Part shown: positions 1 through 56,778 of the stretch, piece after piece
Position numbering within the stretch: the stretch's first letter is position 1
Layout of the letters: every line of letters begins with the position of its first letter
DNA from: Rhodocyclaceae bacterium
GTDB lineage: Bacteria; Pseudomonadota; Gammaproteobacteria; Burkholderiales; Rhodocyclaceae
Length of the DNA: 64,000 bases
Reading direction: 5' to 3'
NCBI GenBank assembly: GCA_030824115.1
Contig: JAVBYI010000004.1
Coordinates: 186,001 to 250,000 of the forward strand
Program-made: the position numbers and the translations under genes
Notes under the pieces: generated by a model
The model's input: only the letters and a program-made list of their open reading frames with translations
Database searches by the model: none
Told to the model about the DNA's origin: nothing

Positions 1-2387
1 CATGGCAGCGTGGCGCCGGTGGGGACGCGCAGCGGCAAGGACTTGGCCAGCGAACGGATTGCCCCGCGAATTTCGGCGACGCCCCAGAGGCGCCAGATGA
101 CCACCGCAGCGACAATGAGCAGCGCGCTGACGACGAAACGTGTCGGCAAGGTTTCGGTCAGCACGATAAACCCGAGCAGGCCAAAGCCGATGCCCTGGGC
201 GGCGTTTCGGTTGCGCCAGACGGCATTGATACGCGCGCTATGTTCCCACTCGTCGAGCCGTTCCTGGATGCGCAGTACCAACGGTTCGGCACGCAGGAGG
301 GTACGCATCAGCGGTGTGTCGATGGGCAGCCCATCGGCGCGTGCTTCCTCGGTGAGCGCCAGCAGGGACTGACTGGCCGTCGCCGCCGTGCCGCGCTGAA
401 AGGCGCCGGCCAGCAACCCGAGTTCGCAGCTTTCGCGCAGCATCGCGAGCGCCTGATTGACGCGCGACACCAGCGCAGCGCGGCCGGCTGCTTGTGCATC
501 AAGACGATGCTGCAGATTCTGTTGCGCGGCGGCGGCGGCTTTGCGGGCATGCGGCAGCAGCAGGCGGGCGATGATCCAGCCGGCCGGATCGTCCGGCGCC
601 AGCAGCGTGGCGAACCATGGCGCATGTTCCAGATAGGGTGCCAGCCCGGTTTGCAACTGTGTATGCAGCATCTGCGCATAGGCTTCATCGGCCATGGCGA
701 GTACCAAAGGCGGGTGCAGGCGCACCGGTGGCGGTAGTTGCAAGCCTTGCGGCTGGCCGAACACGAGCGCATCGAAGTCGGTGGTGTTGCCGCGCTGCTG
801 CCAGCGGGCCCGCTCGATTTCGGCTTCGTGCCAGAGGCTGTCAAGACGAGAACGCGCCGTTTCCCAGCGCGCGGCCAGCGCGGCTTCCGCCGGGAACTGG
901 GCGGCCGGCAACTCACGTAATACCTGCGCGGTATAGACCGACACCAGCCATTCTGCGGCCGCGCCATCGCCCCGTTCGGCCAGCGCGGCTTGGGCGAGCA
1001 AGGCGGCCTGTAGCAGGCTGCGGCCACGCCAGACCGGCGGCACGTCGGGTGCAAGGCGACGAATCACGCGCAGCAGGCGCAGGTCGTCCGCGCTATCGCC
1101 CCGGTCGCGCCGGTCAAGTTCGTCCTGCACGAAGCGCAGCAGATCGTCGTCGCGCAGTTCCTGGCCGATCCAGACCGAGAGCTGACCGCGCATCAGATCC
1201 TTGCGGCCGGATTCCCAATGCGTGGCGAGCGCCAGCGCCAGCTCGAGCGGCGTGGTGCAAAGCGTGCCTTCGAGACGATACGGGCGGGCGGCGTGTTGCG
1301 TCGCTGCCGGGCTGTCTTCGACGGGGGCTTCAAGCGATGCATCGCCCGCCCGCCAGCGGCGGATTTCGGCCATGCCCCAGCGTCGCTGCGGGTCGCGCAG
1401 CAGCAGGCCGCGACACAGCTTGCGCCATTCGGCATCGTCGATCTCGCTGCAATCGAGTGTGCTGGTGACAAGACGATGGGTAATCACCGCGTCGGAAAGG
1501 CCTTCGAAGGGATGGTGACCGGTCAGCAGTTCGACGAGGATGAGGCCGAGCGACCACCAGTCGGCGGCATGGTCGAGCACGCCGGCGAGCGTTTCCGGCG
1601 CGCCGTATTTGACGGTGCGCGCGGTACTGGTGAACAGTTGCGTGGCATCGGCCACCGAGGCGATGCCGAAGTCGGTGAGCACCAGATCGAGCGGTTCGGC
1701 GCGGCGCACCAGGATGTTTTCCGGCTTGAGGTCGCGGTGAATGACCTGCAATTCGTGCAGCGCGGCGAGCGCCTCGGCAATCTCGCCGAGGATGTCGCGC
1801 AACTGGTCGCGCCGCAAGGGCATTGCTTGCGTCATCCACTGGCGTAGCGAACCGCCGCTGCAATATTCCATCACCTCGTAGCCGACGCCCTCCGATTCGC
1901 CCCAGGCGATCAGATGCACGACATGGCGGAAGGCGGCCTTCGACACGCGCTCCAGCACCTCGGCCTTGGGCATCAGTCCGGGACGGTAAAGTTTGGCGAT
2001 GACCTTGACGCCGGAGCTGAGTCCTTCGAGCAGCATGATTTCGGCTTCGGCGCCGCCAGCGGGTAGCACTTCGGCGATGCGAAACTTGCTGGCCAGCGTG
2101 GCGGGGAGGCGGTAAAAAGTCGGCGCTCGGGAGACGGCATCCGTTATAGGCCGACCGCAGTAAAGACACTGCTTGCTGCCCGGCGGATTGGGCATCGCGC
2201 AATCGGCATGCGGGCAAACCAGTTCTGCGGCAACCGCAGCCGGTGCGGCGACGGGAGCGGGCGGCGGTGCCGCGTCCTTGAGCGTCAGATCAACGCCCTG
2301 CAGCAGCGTGCCGCAGTGGCCGCACTGCACTTCCTCGGGCGGTGCCTCCGTCATGCAGACGGGGCAGCGGCGAATGTAATCCTTCAT
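1..2387 (-). CDS. Zinc-ribbon membrane Ser/Thr protein kinase (partial, C-terminus off window)
   Basis: The reading frame is open from ATG at 2387 to the left edge (at least 795 codons). Two zinc ribbons come first (CPVCM...CGHCG and CPHADC...CLYCG, residues 8-80). A Hanks-type kinase domain follows: catalytic Lys132 in VIAKLYRPG, HRDLKPEN with Asp219, TDFG with Asp239, and an APE motif. A long helical region then leads to two predicted membrane helices at about residues 732-775, so the kinase is probably membrane-anchored by its C-terminus. The start overlaps the radical SAM stop as ATGA, indicating translational coupling. A repeat copy (AVSRAPTF) sits between the ribbons and the kinase domain. 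The substrate is unknown; the neighbouring AAA+ protein is a reasonable partner, by inference only. Confidence 0.85.
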   Translation of the reverse strand, partial: MKDYIRRCPVCMTEAPPEEVQCGHCGTLLQGVDLTLKDAAPPPAPVAAPAAVAAELVCPHADCAMPNPPGSKQCLYCGRPITDAVSRAPTFYRLPATLASKFRIAEVLPAGGAEAEIMLLEGLSSGVKVIAKLYRPGLMPKAEVLERVSKAAFRHVVHLIAWGESEGVGYEVMEYCSGGSLRQWMTQAMPLRRDQLRDILGEIAEALAALHELQVIHRDLKPENILVRRAEPLDLVLTDFGIASVADATQLFTSTARTVKYGAPETLAGVLDHAADWWSLGLILVELLTGHHPFEGLSDAVITHRLVTSTLDCSEIDDAEWRKLCRGLLLRDPQRRWGMAEIRRWRAGDASLEAPVEDSPAATQHAARPYRLEGTLCTTPLELALALATHWESGRKDLMRGQLSVWIGQELRDDDLLRFVQDELDRRDRGDSADDLRLLRVIRRLAPDVPPVWRGRSLLQAALLAQAALAERGDGAAAEWLVSVYTAQVLRELPAAQFPAEAALAARWETARSRLDSLWHEAEIERARWQQRGNTTDFDALVFGQPQGLQLPPPVRLHPPLVLAMADEAYAQMLHTQLQTGLAPYLEHAPWFATLLAPDDPAGWIIARLLLPHARKAAAAAQQNLQHRLDAQAAGRAALVSRVNQALAMLRESCELGLLAGAFQRGTAATASQSLLALTEEARADGLPIDTPLMRTLLRAEPLVLRIQERLDEWEHSARINAVWRNRNAAQGIGFGLLGFIVLTETLPTRFVVSALLIVAAVVIWRLWGVAEIRGAIRSLAKSLPLRVPTGATLP
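2114..2142 (-). repeat. Dispersed coding repeat, copy 1
   Basis: Reads AVSRAPTF on the coding strand of the kinase gene, just before its catalytic domain. About 3 mismatches to the 24-nt core, all in the variable centre. Confidence 0.65.
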
Positions 2388-3037
2388 CGCCACGACACCT
2401 CATTGAGGGAAAGCCCGCGCTGCTGGCACAAGGTTTCGAGCGCTGCCATGTCGCCGCGATGCGGAATGCCGATGAACCACAGCTTGCCGTTTTCGAGCGA
2501 GACCTGCATGCGTTTCTCGTCTGGCGCCTGCGGCGCTGCACTGAAATCGGCATAGCGCGCGGTGCCGCGCGCCGACAGCGGCACCAGCGTCTGATTGTCC
2601 GAGCCGCGCCAGAGATGGCCGAGCGGCCGGCCGTCGGCATAAGGCTCGGGGATCACCGCATCGAGCCGTGCGAGCAGCTTCGCGTGCTGCTTCTCAAGAG
2701 TTTTCAACGGATGGCCGCTATAGCAGAGGAGATCGAAATCGAGGCCGGCCGTTTTGCGCCAGGCAATCAGCCCGTCGAGCAACTCGCCCAGCGCCTTCGG
2801 CTGGTCGAAGGGTTCGCCGCCGCTGATGGTGATGCCATCGAGTCCATCCGCTGCAACTTTTCGGCACCAGTCGAGCAGCGCCTTCACCGGCATCGCCCGC
2901 GCCGGATCGGCCGCCCAGGTGTCCTGCGACACGCACCCCTGGCAGCGGATCGTGCAGCCCTGCACCCACAGCCCGATGCGCCGGCCGGGGCCAAGCACGG
3001 TCACGGGGAAGTGGGCCTTGTTGAGGAGGATGTTCAT
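2384..3037 (-). CDS. NrdG-like radical SAM activating enzyme
   Basis: This 217-residue protein has the short radical SAM fold of anaerobic ribonucleotide reductase activases. The N-terminus carries LGPGRRIGLWVQGC and the cluster-binding cysteines in CTIRCQGC (about residues 28-35), followed by ISGGEP, the SAM-binding glycine motif. The family generates a 5'-deoxyadenosyl radical from SAM with a [4Fe-4S] cluster, usually to put a glycyl radical on a partner. No nrdD-like or other glycyl-radical gene is visible. The gene is instead coupled (ATGA) to the membrane kinase gene downstream, so a role inside the kinase/ATPase cluster is more likely than nucleotide reduction. The fold assignment is firm and the function is not. 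Confidence 0.82.
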   Translation of the reverse strand: MNILLNKAHFPVTVLGPGRRIGLWVQGCTIRCQGCVSQDTWAADPARAMPVKALLDWCRKVAADGLDGITISGGEPFDQPKALGELLDGLIAWRKTAGLDFDLLCYSGHPLKTLEKQHAKLLARLDAVIPEPYADGRPLGHLWRGSDNQTLVPLSARGTARYADFSAAPQAPDEKRMQVSLENGKLWFIGIPHRGDMAALETLCQQRGLSLNEVSWR

Positions 3038-3157
3038 GCAGGGAGTGAGTGTACGCCGATCTGCCAGCGCCTACTTCTGGATGCTGGTACAAAATTTGAC
3101 TGTTTAGGTCGGGTAATCTAAGGTGAACATATACGAGTCTGCAAGAGGAGCGCCATC

Positions 3158-3349
3158 ATGAAGACCCTGAACGAACTCTGTCAATCCGTGTTGGCGCAGG
3201 ATGCCGGTAAGGGTCCGCTGCATGAGGCATGTACCTTGCCGCGCTCACCAACGGACATGCGCCCCTTGCCCGAACCGCAGGCGGCGGCGTCATTTGATTC
3301 CTCGTGGGAAGTGATGCAGGGGGCGAACGAGGGTGCGAAGCCGCGCTGA
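3158..3349 (+). CDS. Small orphan protein, 63 aa
   Basis: ATG at 3158 follows a good ribosome-binding site (GAGGAG at 3145-3150). The product is soluble, rich in Pro, Ala and Ser, with a C-terminal stretch FDSSWEVMQGANEG and no signal peptide or membrane segment. It is transcribed opposite to all its neighbours and lies between the radical SAM gene and a 41-bp palindrome. I do not recognise the family. The ribosome-binding site and the plain amino-acid composition favour a real gene, but no homology supports it here. Confidence 0.45.
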   Translation: MKTLNELCQSVLAQDAGKGPLHEACTLPRSPTDMRPLPEPQAAASFDSSWEVMQGANEGAKPR

Positions 3350-3370
3350 ATTTTGGCGGTCTGTCGGCGG

Positions 3371-3411
3371 GAAATTTCAGTCGGTGACAAATTGTCACCG
3401 ACTGAAATTTC
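3371..3411. repeat. 41-bp perfect palindrome (20-bp arms, 1-nt centre)
   Basis: Arms 3371-3390 and 3392-3411 are exact reverse complements around A3391. The left arm begins GAAATTTCAG and the inner part is TCGGTGACAA. No T-run follows on either strand, so an ordinary terminator is unlikely. It lies 24 bp from repeat copy 2, beside the nuclease gene. Confidence 0.9.
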
Positions 3412-3434
3412 TCTCCTTACATCGGTGAGTGTCA

Positions 3435-3463
3435 GTGCCGTCCCGCCAGCGCCGACTTTTTCG
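3435..3463 (+). repeat. Dispersed coding repeat, copy 2 (intergenic)
   Basis: An exact consensus copy with flanking TTTTTC, between the palindrome and the 3' end of the nuclease gene. It is inverted relative to copy 3 on the other side of that gene. It is followed by a motif reading GGGGTCGGGGTCG on the minus strand. Confidence 0.85.
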
Positions 3464-3499
3464 ACCCCGACCCCTTTAATGTCCGACTTGAGAGTCTGC

Positions 3500-4091: not shown

Positions 4092-4117
4092 GAAAGTCGG
4101 CGCTGGCAAGACGGCAC
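4092..4117 (-). repeat. Dispersed coding repeat, copy 3
   Basis: Begins at the TAG stop codon of the AAA+ gene (4117-4119), so the stop abuts the repeat. It is inverted relative to copy 2 across the nuclease gene, with two central mismatches to consensus. Confidence 0.8.
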
Positions 4118-9948: not shown

Positions 9949-12667
9949 CGGGATTTCCATCCGCACGCGTCTCCTGTTTCTGGTCGTGGCAGGTGCCATA
10001 TCGCTTGCAGCGAGCGTCGGCTACGGCATCTATACCGACATGCACCAGACCATCGATGCGACCAAAGCCTCGTTGCGTACCTTGGCGATTACGATGGTCG
10101 GCAAGACCGGCGGCAAGATTGCCAATGCCCGCCAGACACTGGAGCGTCTGGCGGAGCGTCCGCTGGTCAAATTGGTTGACGCCAAGCAGTGCGACGATAT
10201 TTTGAAGGAACTGCTGTACCTGAATCCCGACTATGCCAATGCGACGTACACGACGCGCGAGGGCGTGGCGGTCTGTTCTGCGGTGCCGCAACCCGGCGGC
10301 AAGCAGGTCAATGTTGGCAAGGCACCCTGGTTCCAGCGCTTCGTCAAAAACCAGCATTTCACCGTCGGTGAGCCATTTTTCGGGCCGATTACCGGCAAGT
10401 GGGTTTCTGTCCTCAGCGCGCCGATCTGGAATGAACAGCACGAATTGGTCGGCGGGGTGCAGTTTCCGTTTGATCTCAATGCCTACGATCCACAGATCCC
10501 GACCCAATTTTTGCCCGCCGGGACGCGCTATGGCTTTGTGTCGGAAGGCGGCATTCTGGTCTGGCGGAATGCAGATCCCGAAGGGGAAATTGGCAAGCGG
10601 ACCCAGTCGGAAGCTGCGCAGCGGACGATTGAGGTTCGTGACGGAGAGTTTGAAAGTACGGGTAGTGATGGGGTAAGCCGCTACTATGCCGTCGTGCCGA
10701 TGCCGGAGACCGGGTGGGTTGCGTTTGTCGGGGTGCCGGTGTCGGCGATTTATGCGGATGCCCGGCAGCGCGCACTGAGTGCTGTGCTGCTGGCGTTGGC
10801 CGGGATTTGCCTGCTGTTGCTTCTATCCTTCCTGGTCGCACACAGGATTGTCCGGCCGGTGGCCCTGCTTGAGAAAACGGCACGCGCATTACATGGCGGC
10901 AATCTCGGGGCCAGAATGGCGGTGACAGGCCCCAGCGAGGTGGTCGAGGTCGCGAAGGCCTTTAATGCCATGGCGGATAGCGTTCAGGCTTATACCGTCA
11001 GGCTTGAGGCAGAGGTTGAGGCACACCAGCGTGCCGAGGAGTTGTTACGGGAAAGCAAGGAGGATCTCTCAATCACCTTGAATGCCATCGGTGATGGCGT
11101 CATCGCTACGGACGCTGAAGGTCGTGTCACCCGTATGAATCCAACCGCCGAGCGTCTGTGCGGCTGGGTGCTGGATGACGCCAAGGGCCAGCCGCTGCCT
11201 GATGTATTCCGTATCGTCAACGCGACCACGCGCGCGACGGTGGTTAACCCTGTGGAATTGGTGATGGCACATGGCCAAGTGGTCGGTCTCGCCAACCATA
11301 CCGTGTTGCTGGCCAAGGGTGGGCGGGAATTCCATATTGCCGACAGCGCAGCACCCATCCGCAACGCGGCTGGCGAGATCGTCGGCGTGGTGCTGGTGTT
11401 CAGCGATGTCACGCCGCGCGTGACAGCCGAACTCGAACTGGCGCAATACCGCGAGCATCTGGAAGCTCTGGTCGAGGAGCGTACGCAGGCGCTCACGGTT
11501 GCCAAGGATGTGGCCGAAGCGGCCAATCGTGCCAAAAGCACCTTCCTCGCCAATATGAGTCACGAGTTGCGCACGCCCATGAATGCCATCATGGGTATGA
11601 CCGATCTGGCCTTGCGCCATACCGAAGACCCGAAACTCCAGGATCAGTTGAGCAAGGTCATTCAGGCTTCGCGGCATTTGCTGGCTGTCATCAACGACAT
11701 CCTCGACATTTCCAAGATCGAGGCGGATCGACTGACCCTGGAAGCGGTCAGCTTCAAGTTCGGCGAGGTGCTGGAAAATCTGATGAGCCTGACCGGCCAC
11801 CGGGCCAGCGAAAAACACCTGAAGCTGCTGCTCGACCTGACGCCGGAAATCAACCACCTCTCGCTGCTGGGCGACCCGTTGCGCCTCGGCCAGATCCTGC
11901 TTAACCTGACTGGCAATGCCTTGAAGTTTACCGAGCACGGGTCGATTACCGTACGCACCCGATTGCTGGAAAACCACCCGGACAGCGTGCGCTTGCGCAT
12001 CGAAGTGACTGACACCGGCATCGGTATCACACCTGAAAATCAGCAGCACTTGTTCACTGCCTTTGAGCAGGCAGACGGCTCGATGACCCGCAAATACGGC
12101 GGCACGGGCCTTGGCCTTGCCATCAGCAAGCGGCTGACCAAGTTGATGGGCGGCGAGATTGGGGTGGACAGTGTTCCCGGTCAGGGCAGTACCTTCTGGT
12201 TTACCGTGCGCCTGAGCAAGGCGACGGATGCCGTCCTGCCAGCGCCGACTTTCTCGGGGCAGGCCGCTGATGAACGCCTGCTCGACGAGTTCGCCGGCAC
12301 CCTCATCCTGCTGGCCGAAGACGAGCCGATCAATCAGGAGGTCTCGCGCGGCCTGTTGGAAGATGCCGGTCTGGCCGTTGATCTGGCCGAGGATGGGGTT
12401 GAGGCCGTGGCCCTGGCCAGGAAAAACCGCTATGCCCTGATCCTGATGGACATGCAGATGCCCAACCTCAATGGCATTGATGCCACGAAGGCGATTCGTG
12501 CGCTGCCGGGCTATGCCCGGACGCCGATCCTCGCCATGACAGCCAACGCTTTCGATGAGGATCGCCAGGTCTGCCTGAGCGCCGGCATGAACGACCACAT
12601 CGCCAAGCCGGTCGATCCAGACAAGTTGTTCGAGACTTTGCTGAAGTGGCTGGCGACGACGCGCTAG
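9941..12667 (+). CDS. dCache-HAMP-PAS hybrid histidine kinase
   Basis: The 908-residue protein has TM1 (residues 9-32), a periplasmic double-Cache-like sensor, TM2 (about 277-303), HAMP, a short coiled coil and PAS (about 373-490). HisKA follows with His541 in [12 protein letters not shown], then HATPase_c (N box [10 protein letters not shown] boxes) and a receiver domain with acceptor Asp837 in LILMDMQMP. No Hpt domain is present, so phosphotransfer must go to a separate protein. Its ATG lies inside the end of the EAL-HDOD gene, so the pair is one translational unit under the c-di-GMP riboswitch. A repeat copy (AVLPAPTF) forms the linker between the ATPase and receiver domains. Confidence 0.9.
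12229..12256 (+). repeat. Dispersed coding repeat, copy 4
   Basis: Read AVLPAPTF in the histidine kinase, in the linker between the HATPase and receiver domains. One or two differences from consensus. Confidence 0.8.
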
Positions 12668-16128: not shown

Positions 16129-16584
16129 TTATTCTGCCGTCCCGCCAGCACCGACTTTTTCAAGCACCTCGTCGGGTGTAAAGACATGAAACAGGTGATC
16201 GAGGCGGCGGCTGCGGCGTAATTTGAGCAGCAGCTTGTCGGCGGTGACCAGCCAGTCGGCTTGCCCGTCACGGGCGAGTTCGAGGAATTTCTGGTCGTCC
16301 TTGTCCTGGCATTTCGGCAAGACAATCCCGGTGCGCGGTGGGCTATCGATGATCTGGACGAGTTCGAGATAGGCAGCATAAGCGGCTGCCTGTTGTTCTA
16401 CGGAAAGCTCGAACAGGGGATAGCCGAGCACGCGCTGATATTCGGCCAGACAGGCCGGGCTGGTCAATGCAATCCAGCGGCCGCAAACGACTTCGCCCCG
16501 CAAGGGGGCGAAGCGACTGTCGGCAAAGACGAACAGCGAGAGCAGGACGTTCGTGTCGAATACAACACAAACGGCTTGCGTCAT
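16129..16584 (-). CDS. PIN-domain putative ribonuclease (COG1569-like), orphan toxin
   Basis: A 151-residue PIN protein: VVFDTNVLLS supplies the first acidic residue, AEYQRVL the conserved Glu, and KDDQKFLELA plus ADWLVTADK the remaining acidic residues of the metal-dependent RNase site. The family is annotated as toxins of type II toxin-antitoxin pairs, but no antitoxin-like gene is adjacent. Its ATG overlaps the phaC stop by 1 nt (TGATG), so it is translated from the PHA synthase message. The C-terminus EKVGAGGTAE followed by stop is entirely a repeat copy, so the native tail may have been replaced. Confidence 0.8.
   Translation of the reverse strand: MTQAVCVVFDTNVLLSLFVFADSRFAPLRGEVVCGRWIALTSPACLAEYQRVLGYPLFELSVEQQAAAYAAYLELVQIIDSPPRTGIVLPKCQDKDDQKFLELARDGQADWLVTADKLLLKLRRSRRLDHLFHVFTPDEVLEKVGAGGTAE
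16135..16162 (+). repeat. Dispersed coding repeat, copy 5
   Basis: Read in reverse as KVGAGGTA, giving the last residues of the PIN protein just before its stop codon. One mismatch to the core. Confidence 0.85.
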
Positions 16585-20095: not shown

Positions 20096-20264
20096 CTATG
20101 AGGCGCTGTATCACTGCGTCGGCATCTGCCTGCCGGATGAGGATGAAGCTTATTGCATTGGCTGCGGTCGGCCGTGGACGACCCAACCACCTGCCGTCTC
20201 GCCAGCGCCGACATTTGACGAATCTGATCAGCGGACTTCGTACTCGAAGCTACCGCCGACCTGA
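20082..20264 (+). CDS. Small DUF1289-type cysteine protein with repeat-derived tail
   Basis: GTG at 20082 follows AAGGAA (20069-20074) and gives a 60-residue protein. HCVGICLPDEDEAYCIGCGRPW is the CxxxC...CxxCGR signature of DUF1289 proteins, likely a metal site. After this the usual C-terminal helix is missing: the frame enters repeat copy 6 (AVSPAPTF) and ends in unrelated residues. The last 37 nt overlap the 3' end of the convergent gene at 20228-20680. The signature makes the gene credible, and its tail seems to have been rewritten by the repeat. Confidence 0.65.
   Translation: MDSADYEALYHCVGICLPDEDEAYCIGCGRPWTTQPPAVSPAPTFDESDQRTSYSKLPPT
20192..20217 (+). repeat. Dispersed coding repeat, copy 6
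   Basis: Read AVSPAPTF in the DUF1289-type gene, directly after its cysteine motif. It carries the ACATTT variant of the 3' flank, shared with copies 7 and 13. Confidence 0.8.
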
Positions 20265-24284: not shown

Positions 24285-24938
24285 GTGCCTAATTCTCTCG
24301 CTGCCAAAGTCGCGCCGTCGCGCCGCCGTCGCAAAGAAGCCCGTCCTGCAGAGCTGACGGCGGCGGCGCTCGACGTTTTTGTCGAGAAAGGCTATGCCGC
24401 CACGCGCCTTGAGGATGTGGCTGCGCAGGCGGGTGTCTCGAAGGGCACCTTGTATTTGTATTTCGATAGCAAGGAAGCGCTGTTCAAGGCGGTTGTGCGC
24501 GAAGGGATACTACCGGCGCTGACCGAAGGCGAGACACTGGTGGCCGGCTTCAAGGGCAGCAGCGAGGATTTGCTGCGCGAGGTGATCGGCGGCATGTGGC
24601 GGCTGATTGGCTCGCAGCGCATCGGCGGCATTCCCAAACTGGTGTTTGCCGAGGCGCGCAATTTCCCCGAGATCGCCAGCTTCTACCATCAGGAAGTGAT
24701 CATGCGCGGCACGGCAATGATTCGTTCGGTGATCGAGCGTGGTATCAAGCGCAAGGAGTTTCGCAAGGTCAATGTCGATGCCACCGTGTATCTGGTGATC
24801 GGGCCGGTACTGATGCGCATGATCTGGCGCCATTCACTCGACTGCTGCCTGGCGGCGAATGTCGATGATAAGGCCTATTTCGACGAATACTTCGCCATCA
24901 TGCTGCGCGGCCTGTGGGCGGAAAGGAAAGCCTCATGA
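24285..24938 (+). CDS. TetR/AcrR-family repressor of the RND operon
   Basis: A 217-residue regulator starting at GTG 24285. A basic N-terminus precedes the helix-turn-helix AALDVFVEKGYAATRLEDVAAQAGVSKGTLYLYFDSKEALF. The C-terminal half is an all-helical ligand-binding domain. The operator-like inverted repeat 20 nt upstream and the ATGA overlap with the first adaptor gene show an autoregulated pump operon. The ligand is unknown. Confidence 0.9.
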   Translation: MPNSLAAKVAPSRRRRKEARPAELTAAALDVFVEKGYAATRLEDVAAQAGVSKGTLYLYFDSKEALFKAVVREGILPALTEGETLVAGFKGSSEDLLREVIGGMWRLIGSQRIGGIPKLVFAEARNFPEIASFYHQEVIMRGTAMIRSVIERGIKRKEFRKVNVDATVYLVIGPVLMRMIWRHSLDCCLAANVDDKAYFDEYFAIMLRGLWAERKAS

Positions 24939-25951
24939 GGTACTTGATACTCGCTACTCTGCTGCTGGCCGCCTGTGGCAAGGAGCAGGCCGCTGCACCT
25001 GCCGTCCCGCCAGCGCCGACATTTTTAGTACAAGCATTAGGGGAGGTGGCTATCCATCCCGAGCGCAGCGCGCCGGCGGCGGTGGTCGGCAAGAACGAAG
25101 CGCGTATTTCGGCGGAGGTGGCGGCGGTGATTCTTGCCCTGCCGGTGGATGTCGGGCAGCGCGTCAGGCAGGGCGCCATCGTTGCCCGTCTGGATAGTCG
25201 CGATGCGGCGCTGGCACAAGAACGGGCCGATGCCGCCCTGGCGCAAACGCAGGCGCGCTACGCCCAGGCAGCAGCGCAATTCAAGCGGGCGCAAACGCTG
25301 CGCGAAAAGAACTTCTACTCGGCCGAGGCCTTGACGCTCAAGGAAACCGAACTGGCTGCCGCTGATGCCGACCTGCGCGCTGCCCGGGCGCAACGCGATA
25401 CGGCACGCCGCAACGTCGAGAAACACACCCTCGTCGCTCCCTTTGATGCTGTGGTGCGCGCCCGCAGCGGACAGGTCGGTGAGTTCGCTGCCCCCGGCAC
25501 GGCGCTGCTGACGCTGGTTTCCGCCGGGGAGGTGGAACTGGCCGCGCAACTGCAGGCAGCGGATGCCGCCAGCCATACCAGTGCCGTCCCGCCAGCGCCG
25601 ACTTTTGAGGCCAATGGCACGTCCTATGCGCTCAAGTTACTGCGCGTATCCCCGGCGGTGAATCGCGACTCGCGCAGCATTGAGGCACGCTTTGCTTTTA
25701 AAGATAGTGCGCCGCCAGCCGGCACGGAAGGGCGGCTGGTCTGGCGCGAGCCGGCGCCGTGGCTGCCGGCCGATCTGCTGGTGCGGCGCAATGGACGCTA
25801 TGGCATCTTCATCGCCGCGGAGGGCAAAGCCCGCTTCCATCCTTTGGCGAATGCACAGGAAGGCCGCCCGGCCGCGCTTGATTTGCCGCCGGAAACGCAG
25901 ATCGTGACCCAGGGGCGCCACGCCCTGCAGGACGGCGTGGCGCTGCAATGA
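24935..25951 (+). CDS. RND efflux periplasmic adaptor lipoprotein (first)
   Basis: A 338-residue adaptor with a lipoprotein signal (LLLAACGKE, lipidated Cys at residue 14). It has the split lipoyl/hairpin/beta-barrel layout of HlyD-type membrane fusion proteins: VDVGQRVRQGAIVARLDSRD, an Ala-rich helical hairpin (LREKNFYSAEAL) and THT-type barrel strands. Two full repeat copies are read in-frame as AVPPAPTF, one just after the lipid anchor (residues 23-30) and one in the barrel (about 217-224). Both are tolerated in linker-like positions. It overlaps its RND partner by ATGA. Confidence 0.9.
   Translation: MRYLILATLLLAACGKEQAAAPAVPPAPTFLVQALGEVAIHPERSAPAAVVGKNEARISAEVAAVILALPVDVGQRVRQGAIVARLDSRDAALAQERADAALAQTQARYAQAAAQFKRAQTLREKNFYSAEALTLKETELAAADADLRAARAQRDTARRNVEKHTLVAPFDAVVRARSGQVGEFAAPGTALLTLVSAGEVELAAQLQAADAASHTSAVPPAPTFEANGTSYALKLLRVSPAVNRDSRSIEARFAFKDSAPPAGTEGRLVWREPAPWLPADLLVRRNGRYGIFIAAEGKARFHPLANAQEGRPAALDLPPETQIVTQGRHALQDGVALQ
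25000..25026 (+). repeat. Dispersed coding repeat, copy 7
   Basis: Read AVPPAPTF near the N-terminus of the first adaptor lipoprotein. Exact 20-nt core. Confidence 0.9.
25581..25606 (+). repeat. Dispersed coding repeat, copy 8
   Basis: Second copy in the same adaptor gene, read SAVPPAPTF. Exact 20-nt core, same orientation and frame as copy 7, 581 nt away. Confidence 0.9.
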
Positions 25952-29040: not shown

Positions 29041-30053
29041 AATACTGGACACTTCTACTGTTGCCCCTGCTGGCCGCCTGCGGTGAAAAGATGCCGCCCC
29101 CCGATGCGGCGACGAATGGCCCGAAATTGGTGAAAGCCATGAAAGTCGGCGCTGACAGGACGGCACAGGAAAACCAATATAGCGGTGAAGTGCGCGCCCG
29201 GATTGAATCGACACTCGGTTTTCGGGTAGGTGGCAAGCTGGTCGAACGGCTGGTTGATGTGGGTGCCAAGGTCAAGGCGGGCCAGCCACTGGCGCGCCTT
29301 GACCCAGCCGATCAGCAACTGGCGGCGACGCAGGCGGCGGCCAGCCGCGCGCTGGCAGAGGCCGACTTGAAGCGGACGCAGGAGTTGCGCGAGAAAAATT
29401 TCATCAGCCAGGCCGCCCTCGATGCCAAGGCCACTGCCGCCGAGGTGGCCGGCAGTCAGGCACGGCTGGCTCAGAATCAGGCGAGCTACACCACGTTGGT
29501 GGCCGATGCAGCAGGCGTCGTGTCGGCGGTGTTGGCCGAGCCGGGGCAGGTGGTGGCCGCCGGACAAGGCGTGTTTCGGCTGGCGCGCGACGGCCAGCGC
29601 GAAGTGGCGATTGTCATTCCCGAATCGCGCCTTGCCGGGCTGAAGGTGGGTATGGGTGCCACGGTGGATTTATGGGCAGGTAAATCCTACCGGGGCGTGC
29701 TGCGCGAACTGGCGCCGATGGCCGATGCGGCAACGCGCACCTTCGCGGCACGGGTGAGCCTGCCGGATGCCGACGAAGTGGTGGCGCTGGGCATGACAGC
29801 GACCGTGCGTTTCGCCCGGGAAAGCGCGACCGAGCTTGTCGTGCCGCTGGCGGCCATCCTGCAGCAAGGCGATAAAGCAGCCGTGTGGGTGATCGCAGAA
29901 GACAGCACGGTGCGCCAGCAGCCGATCGAGATTGCCCGCTATTCCGATCAAGGAGCGGTTGTGGCTTCCGGCCTGGACGGCAGCGAAACTATTGTCGCTG
30001 CGGGTGCATTCATGTTGTCCGCCGGCGAAAAAGTCAGGATCGCCCAACCATGA
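29037..30053 (+). CDS. RND efflux periplasmic adaptor lipoprotein (second)
   Basis: A 338-residue membrane fusion protein with lipobox LPLLAACGEK, lipoyl halves (VDVGAKVKAGQPLARLDPAD and AGVVSAVLAEPGQVV), a helical hairpin (LREKNFISQAALDAK) and beta-barrel plus membrane-proximal domains. Repeat copy 9 is read KVGADRTA just before the first barrel strand. It pairs with the RND gene that overlaps its stop (ATGA), making this the second complete adaptor/pump set in one operon. Confidence 0.9.
   Translation: MKYWTLLLLPLLAACGEKMPPPDAATNGPKLVKAMKVGADRTAQENQYSGEVRARIESTLGFRVGGKLVERLVDVGAKVKAGQPLARLDPADQQLAATQAAASRALAEADLKRTQELREKNFISQAALDAKATAAEVAGSQARLAQNQASYTTLVADAAGVVSAVLAEPGQVVAAGQGVFRLARDGQREVAIVIPESRLAGLKVGMGATVDLWAGKSYRGVLRELAPMADAATRTFAARVSLPDADEVVALGMTATVRFARESATELVVPLAAILQQGDKAAVWVIAEDSTVRQQPIEIARYSDQGAVVASGLDGSETIVAAGAFMLSAGEKVRIAQP
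29141..29166 (-). repeat. Dispersed coding repeat, copy 9
   Basis: Reverse orientation relative to the gene, read KVGADRTA in the second adaptor. Two central mismatches. Confidence 0.8.
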
Positions 30054-35498: not shown

Positions 35499-36726
35499 AG
35501 CGTTCGATCAAGGCAAGGTTGCGCGCGGTTGCCCCGCGATGCTGTGTGGTGAATTGACGGCCGGCGGTGGCCATCGTGCTTTTTCGTGTGTCGTCGCCCA
35601 ATAAGGCCAGCGCTTGGGTCACCAGCTCTGTCGCGTTACCCACTTGAATGGCGGCACCGGCCTTGATCGCTCCACGTGCCGCTTCGGCAAAATTGTAGGT
35701 CGATGGCCCAATTAGCACGGGTGTGCCGACAGCACACGGCTCGATAAGATTCTGGCAGCCGAAATCGAGCAGGCTGCCGCCGACAAAAACGACATCCGCA
35801 GCGGCATGGTAGGCAAACATTTCACCCATGCTGTCACCGAGCCAGACTTGGGTGTCGGCGGCAACGGCTTGTTCATCCGAGCGCCGTTGCAGTTTGAGGC
35901 CGCGCATTGCAATGAGGCTGGCGACTTCATCAAAGCGTTGCGGATGACGGGGGACGATGACCAATAGTGCCGTCCCACCACCGACTTTTTGCCAAGCATC
36001 GAGAATTAGGGCTTCTTCGCCCTCGCGCGAGCTGGCACAAAGAAAAACCGGTCGCTGACCGATCTGCAGGCGGAAGTCGCGAAGATTGTCGGGCGGCGTG
36101 ATATCAAACTTGACGCTGCCGAACACGGAAACCTCAGGTGCACCCAGTGCGCGCAAGCGCACTGCATCCTCCTCGCCAATCGCTGAAATTGCTGCCAGAT
36201 GCGTTAGTGCCGTCCGTGTGAGATTCGGAAAGCGGCGATAGCGTCGCGCTGATCGTTCTGACAGTCGTGCATTGACGAGCAGTAAGGGTATCTGCTGCGT
36301 TCTGCAGGTGGTAATCAGGTTGGGCCACAACTCCGTTTCCATGATCAGGCCGATATGTGGCCGGAAGTGGCGCAGGAAACGACGAACACCCCACGGTGTG
36401 TCGTAGGGCAGATAAACCCGTGTCACCGTGTCGCCGAACAAGTCCTCCGACGTCGCCCGTCCGGTGGGTGTCATGTGGGTGAGCAGGATGCGGTGATCGG
36501 GATAGCGTGCCATGAGGGCTGCCACCAAGGGTTGCGCCGCGCGCGTTTCACCGACGGAAACGGCGTGAATCCAGATTGTCGGCGCTGGGACGACGGCATC
36601 GTAGTGGCCGAAACGCTCCGCCCAATGACGCAAGTAGGCTGGTTGCCGGCGTGCGCGCCAGAGCAGGTGCAGCAGCGCCCAGGGCAGCAGGGTGACGATG
36701 ACCAGCGTATAGATCGGATGGGTCAT
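35479..36726 (-). CDS. waaA: 3-deoxy-D-manno-octulosonic acid (Kdo) transferase
   Basis: A 415-residue GT30 enzyme that adds Kdo to lipid IVA at the inner membrane. An N-terminal membrane helix is followed by IWIHAVSVGETRAA (with the catalytic Glu), METELWPNL, LLVNARLSERS and a second Rossmann half ending FGCQNLIEP...TYNF. Two repeat-like segments lie in it: AVVPAPTI directly before the catalytic motif and KVGGGTALL in the inter-domain region. It overlaps waaC (ATGA) and is the last gene of the 18-gene operon. Confidence 0.95.
   Translation of the reverse strand: MTHPIYTLVIVTLLPWALLHLLWRARRQPAYLRHWAERFGHYDAVVPAPTIWIHAVSVGETRAAQPLVAALMARYPDHRILLTHMTPTGRATSEDLFGDTVTRVYLPYDTPWGVRRFLRHFRPHIGLIMETELWPNLITTCRTQQIPLLLVNARLSERSARRYRRFPNLTRTALTHLAAISAIGEEDAVRLRALGAPEVSVFGSVKFDITPPDNLRDFRLQIGQRPVFLCASSREGEEALILDAWQKVGGGTALLVIVPRHPQRFDEVASLIAMRGLKLQRRSDEQAVAADTQVWLGDSMGEMFAYHAAADVVFVGGSLLDFGCQNLIEPCAVGTPVLIGPSTYNFAEAARGAIKAGAAIQVGNATELVTQALALLGDDTRKSTMATAGRQFTTQHRGATARNLALIERFIPAAR
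35966..35992 (+). repeat. Dispersed coding repeat, copy 10 (3-nt deletion)
   Basis: Read in reverse as KVGGGTA in waaA. One codon is missing compared with KVGAGGTA, so the frame is kept. Confidence 0.6.
36575..36600 (-). repeat. Dispersed coding repeat, copy 11
   Basis: Read AVVPAPTI in waaA, just ahead of the conserved IHAVSVGE motif. Several mismatches in the centre and T-run. Confidence 0.6.
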
Positions 36727-37682
36727 GCAGCCGGCAGTTGCAAGGCTGTTTCGATGACCTCGGCCGGCGCAGGCGTTTGCCCGATGCCACCGAGATTGCG
36801 GTGGGGTGCCGTGCCGAGGACACCTGTAAGCGACGGGTCCGAGCCGCAATAAATCGCCACGGTGGGCCGTTGCAGGGCTGCTGCCAGATGCACGAGACCG
36901 GTATCGACGCCGATGACCAGGGCAGCGCCTGCCATCAGGCCCGCCAGATCGGTCAGGTTCATCGCGGGTGCGGCTACTGCATGCGGTAGCGTTTCCGCAA
37001 TGCGCGCAGCCCGCGCCCGTTCCGCTGAATTGCCGCCGGGCAGCACGCAATGCAGCCCGGCAGCATTCAAGGCAGTGCCCAGCGTATGCCAGCGATCTTC
37101 CGGCCATTCCTTGTCGGTACGGCTGGTTGCGGTGAGCAGCACGGCATAGTTCCCCGTCGCCAGCCAGTCCGCCTGCAGCGCGGGCGCAGTGATGCCGTAG
37201 TCAAGCGGCAAATCGTCAAGCGCATAACCGAGCGCGGCGGCGGCCAGCTGGCGGTTGCGCAGGACGGCGTTCTGCTGGCGCGGAATGTCAAAGCAGCGAT
37301 CGTAAAACCGGGCGGCCAGCGGTTCGCGAGCCGAAGCGGCACTCTGACCAAATTTATGACCGCGTGCCTGCGAGGCGAGCAGGGCACTTTTGACGAGCCC
37401 CTGCGTGTCGATCACCGCATCATAAATGTCGGCGCTGACCAGACGGCGGAAGTGGCCGATCTCACGCCAAGTGGCACGGGATAGCAGCGATTTTCGCCAG
37501 CGACGCATGGCGACTGGAATGACCTGCCCTACGGCGGGGTGAAAGCGGGGAATTTCTGCGAAATTTTCTTCCACAAGCCAGTCAATGCTTGCCTCCGGCA
37601 AGCACCGCCGGATGTCGCTGGCGACCGGCAGGTTGTGGATGACATCGCCGAGCGAGGAGGTTTTGACAAGCAGGATGCGCAT
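36723..37682 (-). CDS. waaC: LPS heptosyltransferase I
   Basis: A 319-residue GT9 enzyme adding the first L-glycero-D-manno-heptose to Kdo. MRILLVKTSSLGDVIHNLP is the classic N-terminus with the catalytic Asp. VIDTQGLVKSA, TATSRTDKEWPEDRW and VIGVDTGLVHLAAAL are the nucleotide-sugar half. No ribosome-binding site precedes ATG 37682; instead TATAAT lies 10 nt upstream, so an internal near-leaderless transcript is possible. A repeat-like stretch at 37424-37448 is read in a different frame here (RLVSADIYD). Confidence 0.95.
   Translation of the reverse strand: MRILLVKTSSLGDVIHNLPVASDIRRCLPEASIDWLVEENFAEIPRFHPAVGQVIPVAMRRWRKSLLSRATWREIGHFRRLVSADIYDAVIDTQGLVKSALLASQARGHKFGQSAASAREPLAARFYDRCFDIPRQQNAVLRNRQLAAAALGYALDDLPLDYGITAPALQADWLATGNYAVLLTATSRTDKEWPEDRWHTLGTALNAAGLHCVLPGGNSAERARAARIAETLPHAVAAPAMNLTDLAGLMAGAALVIGVDTGLVHLAAALQRPTVAIYCGSDPSLTGVLGTAPHRNLGGIGQTPAPAEVIETALQLPAA
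37424..37448 (-). repeat. Repeat-like sequence in waaC (copy 15, alternative frame)
   Basis: About 22 of 24 nt match the ACATTT variant of the repeat, but it is read as RRLVSADI, the third frame. It may be a genuine copy adapted to the heptosyltransferase or a chance match. Confidence 0.35.
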
Positions 37683-44462: not shown

Positions 44463-46303
44463 GATTCAACGTACTCCAATGGGTGCGATTCAAGCCAGTT
44501 GAGCAGCACCAGCAGGGTATACAACAGGCGCAGATTGCCGCGTCCCCCCATCGTCTCTTTTGCCAGTGCTGCAACGGCTTCTGCATGAAGCCAATGTGCC
44601 CGTGTTTCGGCTTGCGCTACTTGCGCCTCAAGCCAGTCATGCCAGGGTCCCCTGAAGTTATTTCTCAGCGGCACCGAAAATCCGTGTTTGGGCCGACCCC
44701 ATACCGCCTCTGGCAGGTGGCGACGGGCCAGCGCGCGCAATATGGATTTGCCCCCATCCTTATCGAAGTGCACCTCTGCAGGTAGCTTAAGTATTCTGTC
44801 CTGCAAGGCGTTTGCGAGCAGAGGGACGCGCACCTCCAGACCATGACTCATACTGGCCCTGTCTGTCTTGGCGAGGCAATTTTCAGATAGATAGGTCCAC
44901 AGGTCTGCACGCAACAAGGCTGCTTGATTGTAGCTACCGTGGGTTTCGGCGAGGCTTCGCCAAAGCAGAAGGGTGTCATCTGGCCGTGCAGCAGTGGTGA
45001 TCCCGGGTGAAAGATATCGCCTTAAATCCTTGCGGCTGCCCGGATAATTGCCGAGTTCGACGCGGCGGTAGAGCAACAATTCACGGCCTGCCAGCGAACG
45101 TCTTGTCAGGCTTGCCGGCGCAAGACCATATTTCAGCAGCGTGCGCAGCAGTTGTTTGCCGATAGAGTCCGGATGACGATTCGCGGTGTCGAGAAAGCGG
45201 GGGTATCCACCAAAGAGTTCATCGCCACCATCCCCGGAGATGGCCACCGTGACATGTTCTCGGGTCAGTCGCGCCAGTGCCCATGTGGGTATATAGGCGG
45301 GATCTGCAAGTGGCTGATCAAGGTCGGCCAAGGCGGAGATCGCCAAATCGGCGGTGAGATCCGGGGCATCAAGAACATGGTGCTCCGTGCCGTACTGCTG
45401 CGCGACGGCCTTGGCGGCATGACTTTCGTCGAAAGCCGCTTCCGCAAAACGGACACTGAACGTTTTGAGTGGCGTTGCACCCGCCTGCGCCATGTAATGC
45501 ACCATCAGACTGCTGTCGATACCACCAGACAGGAAGGCGCCCAACGGTACATCTGCCACTAACTGGTCCTTGACGGCCTGGCCCAGTAGAGCGTCCGTTT
45601 CATCGATCAGTGACGGGCGATCAGGGATGGCCTCATCGGGATCGGGAATCGTCCACCACTGCCTTGCCGTTCCGCCAGCGCCGACTTTCCACTTTAGGCA
45701 GGCGCCTGGTGGTAGGGCATGAATATCCTTGACCAGTGTATGGGGCGCCAGCGGAGTTTGAAAGGCCAGGTAATCGCGCAAACCTTCCGGATCGAGCTTT
45801 TTCGGAAAAGAGGGAAAGGCAAAAAATGGCGCCAGGGTCGATGCTGCCAGCAACCCGCCCCCATGGTCGCTCCAGAACAAGGGCTTGATGCCCATCCGGT
45901 CGCGAGCGAGAAATACGCTCCCATCGGCCAAGTCGTGGATGGCGAATGCAAACATGCCATCGAGTTTACTGACAATGTCTTCGCCCCAGTGCAAATAGCC
46001 GGTCAGCAGAACCTCGGTGTCAGAGCGGGTAGCGAATGTATGGCCAGCATGCTCAAGATTCCGACGAAGGGATGCAAAGTTATAAATTTCCCCATTGAAA
46101 ACGATCGCCAAGCGGTTATTTGCCGCTGTCATGGGCTGGCGCCCGCCCGCAAAATCAATGACGGCTAAGCGTGAATGTCCCAGCAGGGCATCCCCATGAG
46201 TCAGCACCTCACGGGCATCAGGGCCACGCGAACGCAAGGTTGCCAGGGCAGCCTCAAAGTCGGATCGGAAGGCACTACCAATGGCAAGCAGAATTCCGCA
46301 CAT
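44459..46303 (-). CDS. asnB: Asparagine synthase (glutamine-hydrolysing), polysaccharide-cluster type
   Basis: A 614-residue two-domain enzyme. N-terminal Cys2 (MCGILLAIG) is the glutaminase nucleophile, with FNGEIYNF and RSDTEVLL of that domain. The synthase half has the PP-loop LSGGIDSSLM and ISGDGGDELFGGYPR. Copies inside glycan operons may amidate sugar carboxyl groups instead of aspartate. Repeat copy 12 inserts KVGAGGTA at about residues 205-212, in the linker between the two domains. It overlaps the glycosyltransferase genes on both sides. Confidence 0.9.
   Translation of the reverse strand: MCGILLAIGSAFRSDFEAALATLRSRGPDAREVLTHGDALLGHSRLAVIDFAGGRQPMTAANNRLAIVFNGEIYNFASLRRNLEHAGHTFATRSDTEVLLTGYLHWGEDIVSKLDGMFAFAIHDLADGSVFLARDRMGIKPLFWSDHGGGLLAASTLAPFFAFPSFPKKLDPEGLRDYLAFQTPLAPHTLVKDIHALPPGACLKWKVGAGGTARQWWTIPDPDEAIPDRPSLIDETDALLGQAVKDQLVADVPLGAFLSGGIDSSLMVHYMAQAGATPLKTFSVRFAEAAFDESHAAKAVAQQYGTEHHVLDAPDLTADLAISALADLDQPLADPAYIPTWALARLTREHVTVAISGDGGDELFGGYPRFLDTANRHPDSIGKQLLRTLLKYGLAPASLTRRSLAGRELLLYRRVELGNYPGSRKDLRRYLSPGITTAARPDDTLLLWRSLAETHGSYNQAALLRADLWTYLSENCLAKTDRASMSHGLEVRVPLLANALQDRILKLPAEVHFDKDGGKSILRALARRHLPEAVWGRPKHGFSVPLRNNFRGPWHDWLEAQVAQAETRAHWLHAEAVAALAKETMGGRGNLRLLYTLLVLLNWLESHPLEYVES
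45665..45689 (+). repeat. Dispersed coding repeat, copy 12
   Basis: Read in reverse as KVGAGGTA in asnB, between the glutaminase and synthase domains. One mismatch to the core. Confidence 0.88.
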
Positions 46304-53722: not shown

Positions 53723-53733
53723 CAAACAGGACT

Positions 53734-54852
53734 TTAGTCAGCCCGCAAAGCGGCGGATTCTATCAGTCGCCCGTAAAGTGCCACCAGTTGCCCGGCCATG
53801 GCCGCAGGCGTTAACGATGAAGTGCTGGTACACGCCGCCTGTCTCATTGCGTCCGCAGCGCCGGGCATGCAGAGGGCGTCGAGGCAACCGGCGAGATCAG
53901 TGGGTGTGTTCGGCGGGCAGACCAGGCCATTGTGCCCTGCTTCGATCAACTCGGCGGCACCGCAACTGGCGGTCGTTACTAGCGGCAGGCCGCTCGCGAG
54001 TGCCTCCAGGGCTGCATTGGGAAAGGGATCATAGAGCGTCGGTAGGCAACAAATATCGGCTGCCCCATAGAAAGGGCGGACATCGGTCTGAGCACCCAGG
54101 AAGCGGACACGGCCTGTAACCCCGAGCCGCCGTGCCAGATGACGATAGCGCCTGACATCTTTATCCTGCCCCACAACCCAGATTTCTGCATGCTGTGCTG
54201 CCATGCGCGCGCTGGCTTCGATCAGCGTCGCAACGCCCTTGCGCGCGAAGCCGGAGCCGACGAAGAGAATCACGGGGGCCGTCTCGCCAGCGCCGACATT
54301 TGCGCGAACCTGTGCCCGATGTTGCTCACGCAGCCCGGGATGGAACTGCTTCGGATCGACACCGCTGTAGATAACCTCAAGTTTTTCAGCAGCTTGCGGG
54401 AATCGTCGGGCGATATCGTCGCGCACCATCCGTGAGTTGCAGATGACTGCTTTCAGATTGGGGTGGCGAAACATGGCGGCTTCGGCGGCCAGCGTGTAAC
54501 GATGCCATGGTGACAGGCGGGTGAAAGGCTTGTGGGCGAGTTCCAGCCAGGTGGCATGGACGCCGTCACCAGCCCGATAGACATGGCAGCCCGGAATGCG
54601 CTCATGAGACTGCACGATATCGTAACGTCCGCTGACGATTACTTTCTGGACGCAATGGGCAAAACTGCGGTCACGCCAGGTGCGGCCAAGATAAAACGGG
54701 TCGCAAGTAATACCCGTCACATCGCCTTTCCATTGTCGCGCAATGATCTCGACATCAATCCCCTTGGCCTGCAACGCATCCAGGGCACGCGCCACAAAGC
54801 GTTCCGCGCCCCCGAAGGGGGTGTATTTTTGCCGAACGATGGCAAGCTTCAT
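53734..54852 (-). CDS. Glycosyltransferase family 4 (WaaG-like)
   Basis: A 372-residue GT-B enzyme. RQKYTPFGGAERFVARALDAL, VICNSRMVRDDIARRFP and IYSGVDPKQFHPG are close to the LPS core glucosyltransferase WaaG. ILFVGSGFARKGVATLIEA and PTLYDPFPNAALEALASGLPLVTT form the donor side. Repeat copy 13 is read NVGAGETA immediately before the strand PVILFVGSG. It overlaps the GT9 gene upstream by ATGA. Confidence 0.87.
   Translation of the reverse strand: MKLAIVRQKYTPFGGAERFVARALDALQAKGIDVEIIARQWKGDVTGITCDPFYLGRTWRDRSFAHCVQKVIVSGRYDIVQSHERIPGCHVYRAGDGVHATWLELAHKPFTRLSPWHRYTLAAEAAMFRHPNLKAVICNSRMVRDDIARRFPQAAEKLEVIYSGVDPKQFHPGLREQHRAQVRANVGAGETAPVILFVGSGFARKGVATLIEASARMAAQHAEIWVVGQDKDVRRYRHLARRLGVTGRVRFLGAQTDVRPFYGAADICCLPTLYDPFPNAALEALASGLPLVTTASCGAAELIEAGHNGLVCPPNTPTDLAGCLDALCMPGAADAMRQAACTSTSSLTPAAMAGQLVALYGRLIESAALRAD
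54278..54302 (+). repeat. Dispersed coding repeat, copy 13
   Basis: Read in reverse as NVGAGETA at the inter-domain boundary of the WaaG-like gene. It carries the ACATTT-type flank. Confidence 0.75.
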
Positions 54853-55940: not shown

Positions 55941-55980
55941 GGGCTGCATTTTGCCAGACACCTATCGTTAGAATGCCCCG

Positions 55981-56778
55981 ATGCACAAACTCTCCGCCGT
56001 TTTGATCACCCGTGATGCGGCTGGCTGCCTGCCAGCCAGCCTGGCTTCACTCGGGTTTTGCGACGAGATGCTGGTGGTCGATTGTGGGAGCCAGGACGGT
56101 ACGGTCGACATCGCGCGGCAGGCGGGTGCGCGCATCATTGAAACTCATTGGCGCGGTTTTGGGTTACAGAAGCAGTTTGCCGTCGAACAGGCAAGCCATG
56201 ACTGGGTACTGTGCATCGACGCTGATGAGCAGGTAACGCCGCAACTGGCGGCCGAAATTCAAGCCGTCCTGTCAGCAGGGAGGCCGTCAGGCCGGAAGCG
56301 GCCCGAAGAGGCTGCGCCGACTTTTTCATGCTACCAATTCTCTCGCTGCAATCGTTTCATGGGCCGCTATTTGCAGCATGGCGAAGGCTATCCGGATTGG
56401 AGTCTGCGCCTGTTCGACCGTCGTCATGCCCGCTGGTCTGAAGATGCCGTGCATGAGCGCGTGATTTCGGCGGGGGCGGTCGGTATGCTGGCCGGAGACC
56501 TGCTGCATGATTCTGCCGAGTCGCTCGAACGCTATCTGGACAAACAAAACCGCTATTCCTCGCTGGCAGCAGAGTCAGCCATCAAAAATGGAAAGCGCAG
56601 TTCGGCGCCTCGCCTTTTGATTTCGCCTGTTATCCGCTTTATCAAGTTCTATTTGTTGCGGGGTGGATTCCGGGATGGGGTGCCCGGCTTGGTGCATATT
56701 CTCATCGGCTGCTACGCCAGTTTCGCCAAGCATGCAAAAATGCTCGCTTGCCAAATCAGCTCAACGGATAAAAAATGA
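55981..56778 (+). CDS. Glycosyltransferase family 2 (WaaE/KdtX-like)
   Basis: A 265-residue GT2 enzyme similar to core beta-1,4-glucosyltransferases: [58 protein letters not shown] and [16 protein letters not shown]. An interrupted copy of the repeat (56264-56330) supplies an insert ending APTF after the DAD motif. TAGAAT ends 6 nt before the ATG, so transcription may begin at the start codon. It overlaps ugd by 4 nt. Confidence 0.87.
56264..56330 (+). repeat. Dispersed coding repeat, copy 14, interrupted
   Basis: GCCGTCCTGTCAGC and GCGCCGACTTTTTC are the two ends of the element, separated by about 38 nt containing a GGCCG-GAAG-CGGCC hairpin (56290-56303). The frame is kept (AV...APTF). Confidence 0.5.

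Follow-up and report, generated by a model that had tools for sequence, protein, structure and literature searches.

A 25-bp asymmetric motif scattered through genomes of Rhodocyclaceae-like bacteria, a putative label for self-recognition

The 64,000-nucleotide stretch analyzed here, hereafter the window (positions 186,001 to 250,000 of contig JAVBYI010000004.1, assembly GCA_030824115.1, Rhodocyclaceae bacterium), encodes a protein-kinase-like protein, a hybrid histidine kinase, two HlyD adaptors, the Kdo transferase WaaA, a WaaC-like heptosyltransferase, an asparagine synthase-like protein, and a GT4 glycosyltransferase, and every one of these genes carries at least one copy of the same 25-bp motif. 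The motif is real, large, and, as far as literature searches reach, undescribed, and it probably serves these bacteria as a mark for telling their own DNA from other DNA; a jumping element is the less likely reading. Searches with four 20-base forms, outside whose reach most subscription journals lie, returned no paper printing it; none joined "DNA uptake sequence" with Rhodocyclaceae, and with Burkholderiales the phrase returned a single paper, on Neisseria. We refer below to the genome containing the window as G000, the window lying within its contig 1 (C1), and to its nearest relative, with 80 to 86% identity in aligned DNA, as G011.

The motif is a sharply bounded, non-palindromic 25-mer, [TC]GCCGTC[CT][CT]GCCAGCGCCGAC[TA]TTT. 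In the 3.0-Mb genome (24 contigs) the exact core, GCCGTCNNGCCAGCGCCGAC, occurs 384 times, 199 on the plus strand and 185 on the minus strand, and a looser core allowing up to two mismatches occurs 710 times (352 plus and 358 minus); the reversed control yields zero on both strands for either core. A preliminary description of the window had reported a scattered repeat and proposed a whole-genome search for an excess of its core; the repeat is there, far above chance. Across 430 kb of contig 1, we counted 15, 29, 28, 7, 6, 7, and 6 copies at zero to six mismatches from the 25-mer, and the reversed control over the same tract gave five matches at six mismatches and zero at fewer. A sequence logo places the information in 25 columns and almost nil outside them, amounting to 37.6 bits, when about 13 would be enough to mark 710 places in 6 Mb (both strands). 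The center, earlier said to vary, does so mainly at two bases (C or T). The 25-mer folds no better than shuffles, giving no sign of a hairpin. Ranking by 12-mer counts brings the motif out first in G000, G011, and another relative, G016, though not in G001, G004, or G005; scoring of 10-mers against a Markov model did not put it in the first rank.

Thirteen of the 15 positions first listed for the window are motif copies, lying within six substitutions of TGCCGTCCCGCCAGCGCCGACTTTT and within three of the degenerate consensus, and their coordinates were accurate to within one base (Table 1). The copy at 35966 is a shortened variant. A supposed split copy at 56264 was dropped: 81 bases there differ from G011 at one base only, and nothing therefore marks the place as a broken copy.

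TABLE 1 Copies of the motif in the window, in window coordinates
Position	Strand	Feature	Reading or remark
2115..2139	-	Copy in protein-kinase-like gene	AVSRAPTF, linker before kinase part
3054..3078	+	Weak marginal copy	4 mismatches; absent from the earlier list
3436..3460	+	Perfect copy, called intergenic	A short reverse open reading frame (ORF) would give KVGAGGTA
4092..4116	-	Copy, called intergenic	Directly downstream of AAA-ATPase gene 4117-5955 (-)
12229..12253	+	Copy in hybrid histidine kinase	Between HATPase_c and receiver domain
16135..16159	+	Copy near C-terminus of ORF 16129-16584 (-)	EKVGAGGTAE, residue 142/151
20192..20216	+	Copy in open frame (PPAVSPAPTFDE)	DNA conserved with G011; gene caller: intergenic
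25000..25024	+	Copy near N-terminus of HlyD/RND periplasmic adaptor 24914-25951	PAVPPAPTF
25582..25606	+	Second, perfect copy in HlyD/RND adaptor 24914-25951	SAVPPAPTFE
29141..29165	-	Copy in second HlyD adaptor	KVGADRTA
35966..35987 (end approximate)	+	Shortened variant inside waaA ORF	About 4 nt missing mid-motif
36574..36598	-	Copy in waaA (Kdo transferase, PF04413)	DAVVPAPTIWIHAVSVGE
37424..37448	-	Copy in waaC-like heptosyltransferase (PF01075)	RRLVSADIYD, single frame exception
45665..45689	+	Copy in asparagine synthase-like gene	WKVGAGGTAR, between amidotransferase and synthase domains
54277..54301	+	Copy in GT4 glycosyltransferase	ANVGAGETAP, border of its two domains

Most copies lie inside genes: 66 of 91 in G000, 80 of 110 in G011, and 57 of 76 in G001, as counted in tracts of 430, 400, and 400 kb, respectively, which also served for the spacing and distribution counts given below. 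The gene caller was a simple one, based on a codon score with no trained model, and it placed the copies at 20192 and 25000 between genes despite their open frames, the latter because it took a later start of the HlyD/RND adaptor. Genic copies divide almost evenly between forward and reverse readings in G000 and G011 (32/34 and 40/40; 24/33 in G001), and their six-frame counts (11/1/20/0/9/25 in G000, 15/3/22/0/13/27 in G011, and 8/3/13/3/8/22 in G001) depart from equal use of frames by chi-square (P of about 1e-8, 9e-8, and 5e-5). The dominant readings are AVPPAPTF and KVGAGGTA; RRLASADF and KSALAGR are also common, and PSRQRRLF and SRRWRDG are rare. This bias is likely caused by what proteins tolerate. 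The consensus is, on inspection, free of stop codons in all six frames, as had been claimed, and the earlier interpretation is supported to the extent that the repeat is genome-wide and its coding copies prefer tolerable frames. The strong frame bias reported for the window also holds there (10 of 11 framed copies read like AVPPAPTF or KVGAGGTA, the exception at 37424 reading RRLVSADI), but two further frames proved common. Placement in linkers, at domain borders, or at C-termini, likewise part of that description, fits the copies at 2115, 12229, 16135, 25000, 45665, and 54277 and fails for those at 36574, 37424, and 25582, which sit inside Pfam domains.

The motif is conserved as DNA, and DNA polymerase I provides one case. 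The copy in polA sits ungapped in a near-invariant protein stretch, SADYSQ[IV]ELR. Among 30 genomes compared, 17 of the 20 that bear the motif elsewhere have at most four mismatches at this place and the other three have six; all 10 motif-free genomes have 8 to 13 mismatches in the same ungapped stretch. The serine codon is AGC in all 20 motif-bearing genomes and, in the others, TCG or TCC in eight, AGT in one, and an alanine codon in one. Distant orthologues sharing the residues through ordinary conservation, which the preliminary description had named as one observation that would overturn it, did not appear: motif-free genera have different DNA here. At the HlyD site at 29141, 13 of 16 orthologues from the genus carry the motif ungapped at the same codons, with one mismatch to its own dialect in G016 and two in G004; G005 has lost it. 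In G007 and G008 this site has extra codons in mid-motif, with the outer parts of the motif kept. Across 45 gapless sites shared with G011, identity is 0.914 within the motif (0.944 once the four columns that are degenerate are left out) as against 0.832 in the flanks, and in called genes it runs by codon position 1, 2, and 3 at 0.925, 0.953, and 0.887 within the motif and 0.857, 0.899, and 0.639 in the flanks; these sites were preselected by a motif match in G000 and at most six mismatches in G011, which raises the identity inside the motif somewhat.

Counted with the looser core, the motif occurs 296 to 730 times per genome in 18 of the 19 genus members; the nineteenth, G005, has a single loose match, and a motif model found no site in 102 kb of it. 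Among 42 other genomes of the family, G026 has 694 copies, G079 has 587, G019 has 400, G064 has 26, and the remaining 38 have 0 to 8; 40 genomes from other families of the order have 0 to 5. At least 107 named bacterial stretches carry the motif, and among the matches listed these are mostly Rhodocyclaceae, Sulfuritalea, and Sulfurisoma assemblies. Iterated motif models converged on differing consensus sequences in G000, G011, G001, G004, and G016, with zero in the reversed control in each: G016 has CGCCGCCyCGCCAGCGCCGAgTTT, G004 has CACCGTCCCGCCAGCGCCGACTTTy, and in G001 a T at the first position is nearly fixed. The copies of G026 and G079, among the first places listed, mostly start with CGCCGTC. 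In a PolA tree of the 30 genomes (a single gene with a midpoint root, G079 and G064 left out), the 20 motif-bearing genomes fall in one group, with G005 nested within it on a very long branch; we read the two changes of label as one gain and one loss. G005 has lost nearly all motif copies and kept type IV pilins and ComEC.

We propose, with somewhat more confidence than doubt, that the motif is a putative self-recognition label akin to an uptake sequence, in a third family after Neisseriaceae and Pasteurellaceae. The proposal rests on what the analysis establishes, namely the motif's copy number and length, its dialects in the five modelled genomes, its maintenance in place at the sites compared, its lack of polarity in one genome, its avoidance of close neighbors, and its absence from one low-GC region; the presence of type IV pilins, ComEC, and, in most genus genomes, a ComP_DUS-family pilin also favors it. 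We infer both that a protein reads the motif and that biased exchange maintains it. A dedicated protein would read the motif, whose sequence would accordingly be kept at the level of DNA; the reader would sit at the surface, probably as a type IV minor pilin, and bind the 25-mer on free DNA; DNA from kin would preferentially be taken up and then recombined; and variants better matched to the reader would spread through this biased exchange. The fuller picture of a third such system in Rhodocyclaceae-like bacteria, with dialects, a putative and perhaps pilin-type receptor, no canonical ComEA, and a history of one gain and one loss in the tree sampled, seems to us evenly poised between right and wrong.

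The DNA uptake sequence (DUS) of Neisseriaceae offers the closest parallel, with hundreds to thousands of copies, dialects, and new sites that face gaps or dissimilar sequence; it is also biased toward the core genome (PMC3630211, PMC2397512), a bias that the motif may share. One of these studies shows that every DUS dialect except one has a TGA in one of its frames (PMC3630211), whereas our motif is stop-free in all frames. It further differs from DUS in its sequence, in its length (25 bp against 9 to 12 nt), in having no close inverted pairs in the three tracts, and in lacking the CTG core on the motif strand of the consensus; a pilin of the ComP_DUS family is present but unspecific. The shared start TGCCGTC is probably coincidental. 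The uptake signal sequence (USS) of Pasteurellaceae likewise joins a core to a T-rich part and has coding copies and dialect types (PMC7811141, PMC12616744); its sequence is unrelated, and its GCGG is absent from the motif strand of the consensus. Where AT-tracts flank the 9-bp core of USS (PMC7811141), a single TTT(T) tract closes the 25-bp block here. In its anatomy and history the motif is like an uptake sequence. Given the differing sequences and the failure to find ComEA, we nevertheless assign it to neither DUS nor USS.

Several results weigh against the uptake interpretation, and the first is that we found no specific reader. Type IV pilin signals occur in all 19 genus genomes. ComEC is so widespread, being present in 91 of 101 relatives, that it does not discriminate motif-bearing genomes; among the 19 genus genomes, 18 have it (it was not found in G018, which is 83% complete). 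ComP_DUS, a Pfam family named for the DUS receptor, matches a 142-residue minor pilin of G000 at 45.6 bits against a cut-off of 27.3; of 101 relatives, 88 have a match above the cut-off, G005 and motif-free genomes among them, as do 17 of the 19 genus genomes, yet the family was not found in the motif-bearing genus members G012 and G015, and so does not discriminate either. A search for a discriminating pilin in a partial set gave none, since G005 was represented in all pilin groups of two or more members, and ComP-like pilins could not be told apart by net charge. Among 61 relatives, ComEA (TIGR00426) scores above its cut-off in 18 of the 41 that lack the motif or nearly so and in none of the 20 that bear it. 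Nor does it do so in any of the 19 genus genomes, although 18 of these have ComEC; in the 15 genus genomes with any ComEA match, only large proteins below the cut-off are hit. ComEA is thought to pull DNA inward, at least as portrayed in PMC7811141, and its absence from the hits weakens the uptake reading for that reason; the 20 motif-bearing genomes form one clade, so this absence may be one event. The motif is about twice as long as known uptake sequences. The coefficient of variation (CV) of spacing in the uncut 430 kb of G000 is 1.43, less even than random. Nor are viral contigs clearly motif-free: IMG/VR holds 57 viral-contig stretches with the motif and 102 copies at up to four mismatches, 47 of the stretches having one or two and two having five or six. 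Copies beyond the first per stretch come to 0.089/kb in the viral set and 0.154/kb in the bacterial set of at least 107 stretches, both sets having been selected by a match.

The strongest competitor to the uptake label is a binding site for an intracellular protein, such as a nucleoid organizer, condensin loader, or recombination regulator, selected site by site and changing together with that protein. We consider it unlikely, although the constraint at the DNA level, the spacing, the dialects, and the absence of ComEA would suit it equally well. The CV of spacing is 0.82 in G011 and 0.67 in G001, more even than random, and we attribute the uneven spacing of G000 to motif deserts. With these cut out, the three tracts together hold 9 neighbors closer than 500 bp, where 32.5 are expected, and 41 closer than 1 kb, where 60.9 are expected. 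Paired terminators were considered and rejected, as no neighbors lie within 100 bp in the three tracts (6.3 expected). Against an intracellular site speak the motif's information content, far beyond what such sites need; its presence in almost every 20-kb bin of the three tracts once the G000 deserts are set aside, confined to no one domain; and its asymmetry without polarity in G001. There, the best agreement with a two-arm arrangement is 0.65 and the permuted value 0.66 (63 exact sites, main contig), and we rejected a polar motif for G001 since orientation does not follow replication. Chi, KOPS, and similar motifs, which are also spread genome-wide and in coding DNA, are polar with replication; ours is non-polar in G001, the one genome tested. 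The 400-kb tract of G001 (C1 1-400000) also holds a separate repeat with a core near ATCAGGGCATGTTTCCTAC and about 60 occurrences, perhaps a CRISPR or tandem array.

A self-mark that shields the chromosome from the cell's own defense nuclease or exonuclease, in the manner of Chi or of anti-restriction, has only a slim chance of being correct. It would agree with a spacing of a few kilobases and with the lack of copies in a low-GC region. The longest gap in the 430 kb of G000, 45 kb at C1 264295-309660, right of the window, covers the 260-280-kb bin in large part and the 280-300-kb bin wholly, and their GC contents are 0.46 and 0.50 when most bins have about 0.60 to 0.62; its genes, judged by their translations alone, look like surface-sugar genes. 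A second motif-free gap spans 42 kb (C1 73347-115281) at a GC content of 0.56 to 0.58, and both stretches look like acquired islands. GC content and motif count correlate at 0.74 in G000 and not significantly in G011 or G001. Chi-like sites show strand polarity, and its absence in G001 counts against such a mark.

Slimmer still, and largely refuted, is the proposal of the preliminary description that the repeat is a mobile element comparable to Rickettsia palindromic elements, or more generally a mini-element such as a miniature inverted-repeat transposable element (MITE) or a repetitive extragenic palindrome (REP) moved by a RAYT transposase, inserted many times over. Its sharp boundaries and high copy number invite such a proposal, and so do the sites at which relatives lack it. 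Aligned to G011, G000 has 41 copies shared and 6 absent (43 and 4 in the reverse direction); G000 against G001 gives 8 shared and 10 absent, and G011 against G001 gives 11 and 12. Absent here means more than four mismatches to the G000 consensus, some sites count in two comparisons, and a further 37 to 80 copies per comparison went unaligned, mostly owing to the partial coverage of each genome. Of the 32 absent cases, 12 are diverged or other-dialect copies with five to seven mismatches. Net gaps accompany 18 of the 32, some of 12, 18, 22, or 35 nt, as against 4 to 11% of random positions, so insertions and deletions do go along with some gains or losses of sites. The preliminary description had asked whether 24 to 30 nt were inserted or replaced relative to repeat-free orthologues; the net gaps instead scatter between -27 and +35, with 14 at zero and the interval +23 to +34 empty, and the 32 comparisons contain no fixed class of 24-27-nt inserts. 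Among the 20 stricter absences (at least eight mismatches and no motif trace), 11 have no net gap. At G000:C1:313870, the difference from G011 is 27 nt and internal to the motif.

Other features of the motif also fit mobile elements poorly. Rickettsia palindromic elements, which share its in-frame tolerance within many genes, are longer palindromic insertions; unlike them and MITEs, the motif is 25 bp long, with no hairpin and no fixed insert length. REP and REPIN sequences with RAYT are likewise short and present in hundreds of copies, but the motif is non-palindromic and mostly coding, and a Y1 transposase, present in 5 of the 19 genus genomes, was not found in G000, G011, G001, G016, or G004. 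The dialects differ genome-wide. Since there is no insert class, the PolA copy is ungapped, and third codon positions are conserved within the motif, mobile insertion is unsupported. The kinase-like gene at 2115 (a frame 88% identical to that of G011, with HRDLKPEN) carries its motif in the opposite orientation in G011, where it reads KVGAGETA, both copies using favored frames; together with the PolA and mostly ungapped HlyD sites, it points to maintenance and turnover at the site itself more strongly than to the insertion of a unit. The mixture of gaps fits the view of Treangen and colleagues, who note for Neisseria that new DUS often lie opposite gaps or dissimilar sequence and argue that they arrive by recombination (PMC2397512). 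The alternative of a recombining element, raised in the preliminary description, may hold.

Ordinary conservation or composition can be dismissed, for although linkers rich in Pro/Ala or Gly abound where genomes are GC-rich and could yield look-alike peptides, it is refuted by the empty reversed controls, by copies on both strands, in several frames, and between genes, and by conservation at third positions.

Were the reader intracellular, the motif would represent an unusual class of genome-wide binding sites with a long, asymmetric sequence. If the motif is instead an uptake-like label for self-recognition, a third family with a dissimilar and longer sequence would imply that sequence-specific self-recognition evolves repeatedly. 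In that case, the species concerned, with their natural dialects and a single loss among them, would lend themselves to a comparative search for the reader and would allow drive to be tested against selection.

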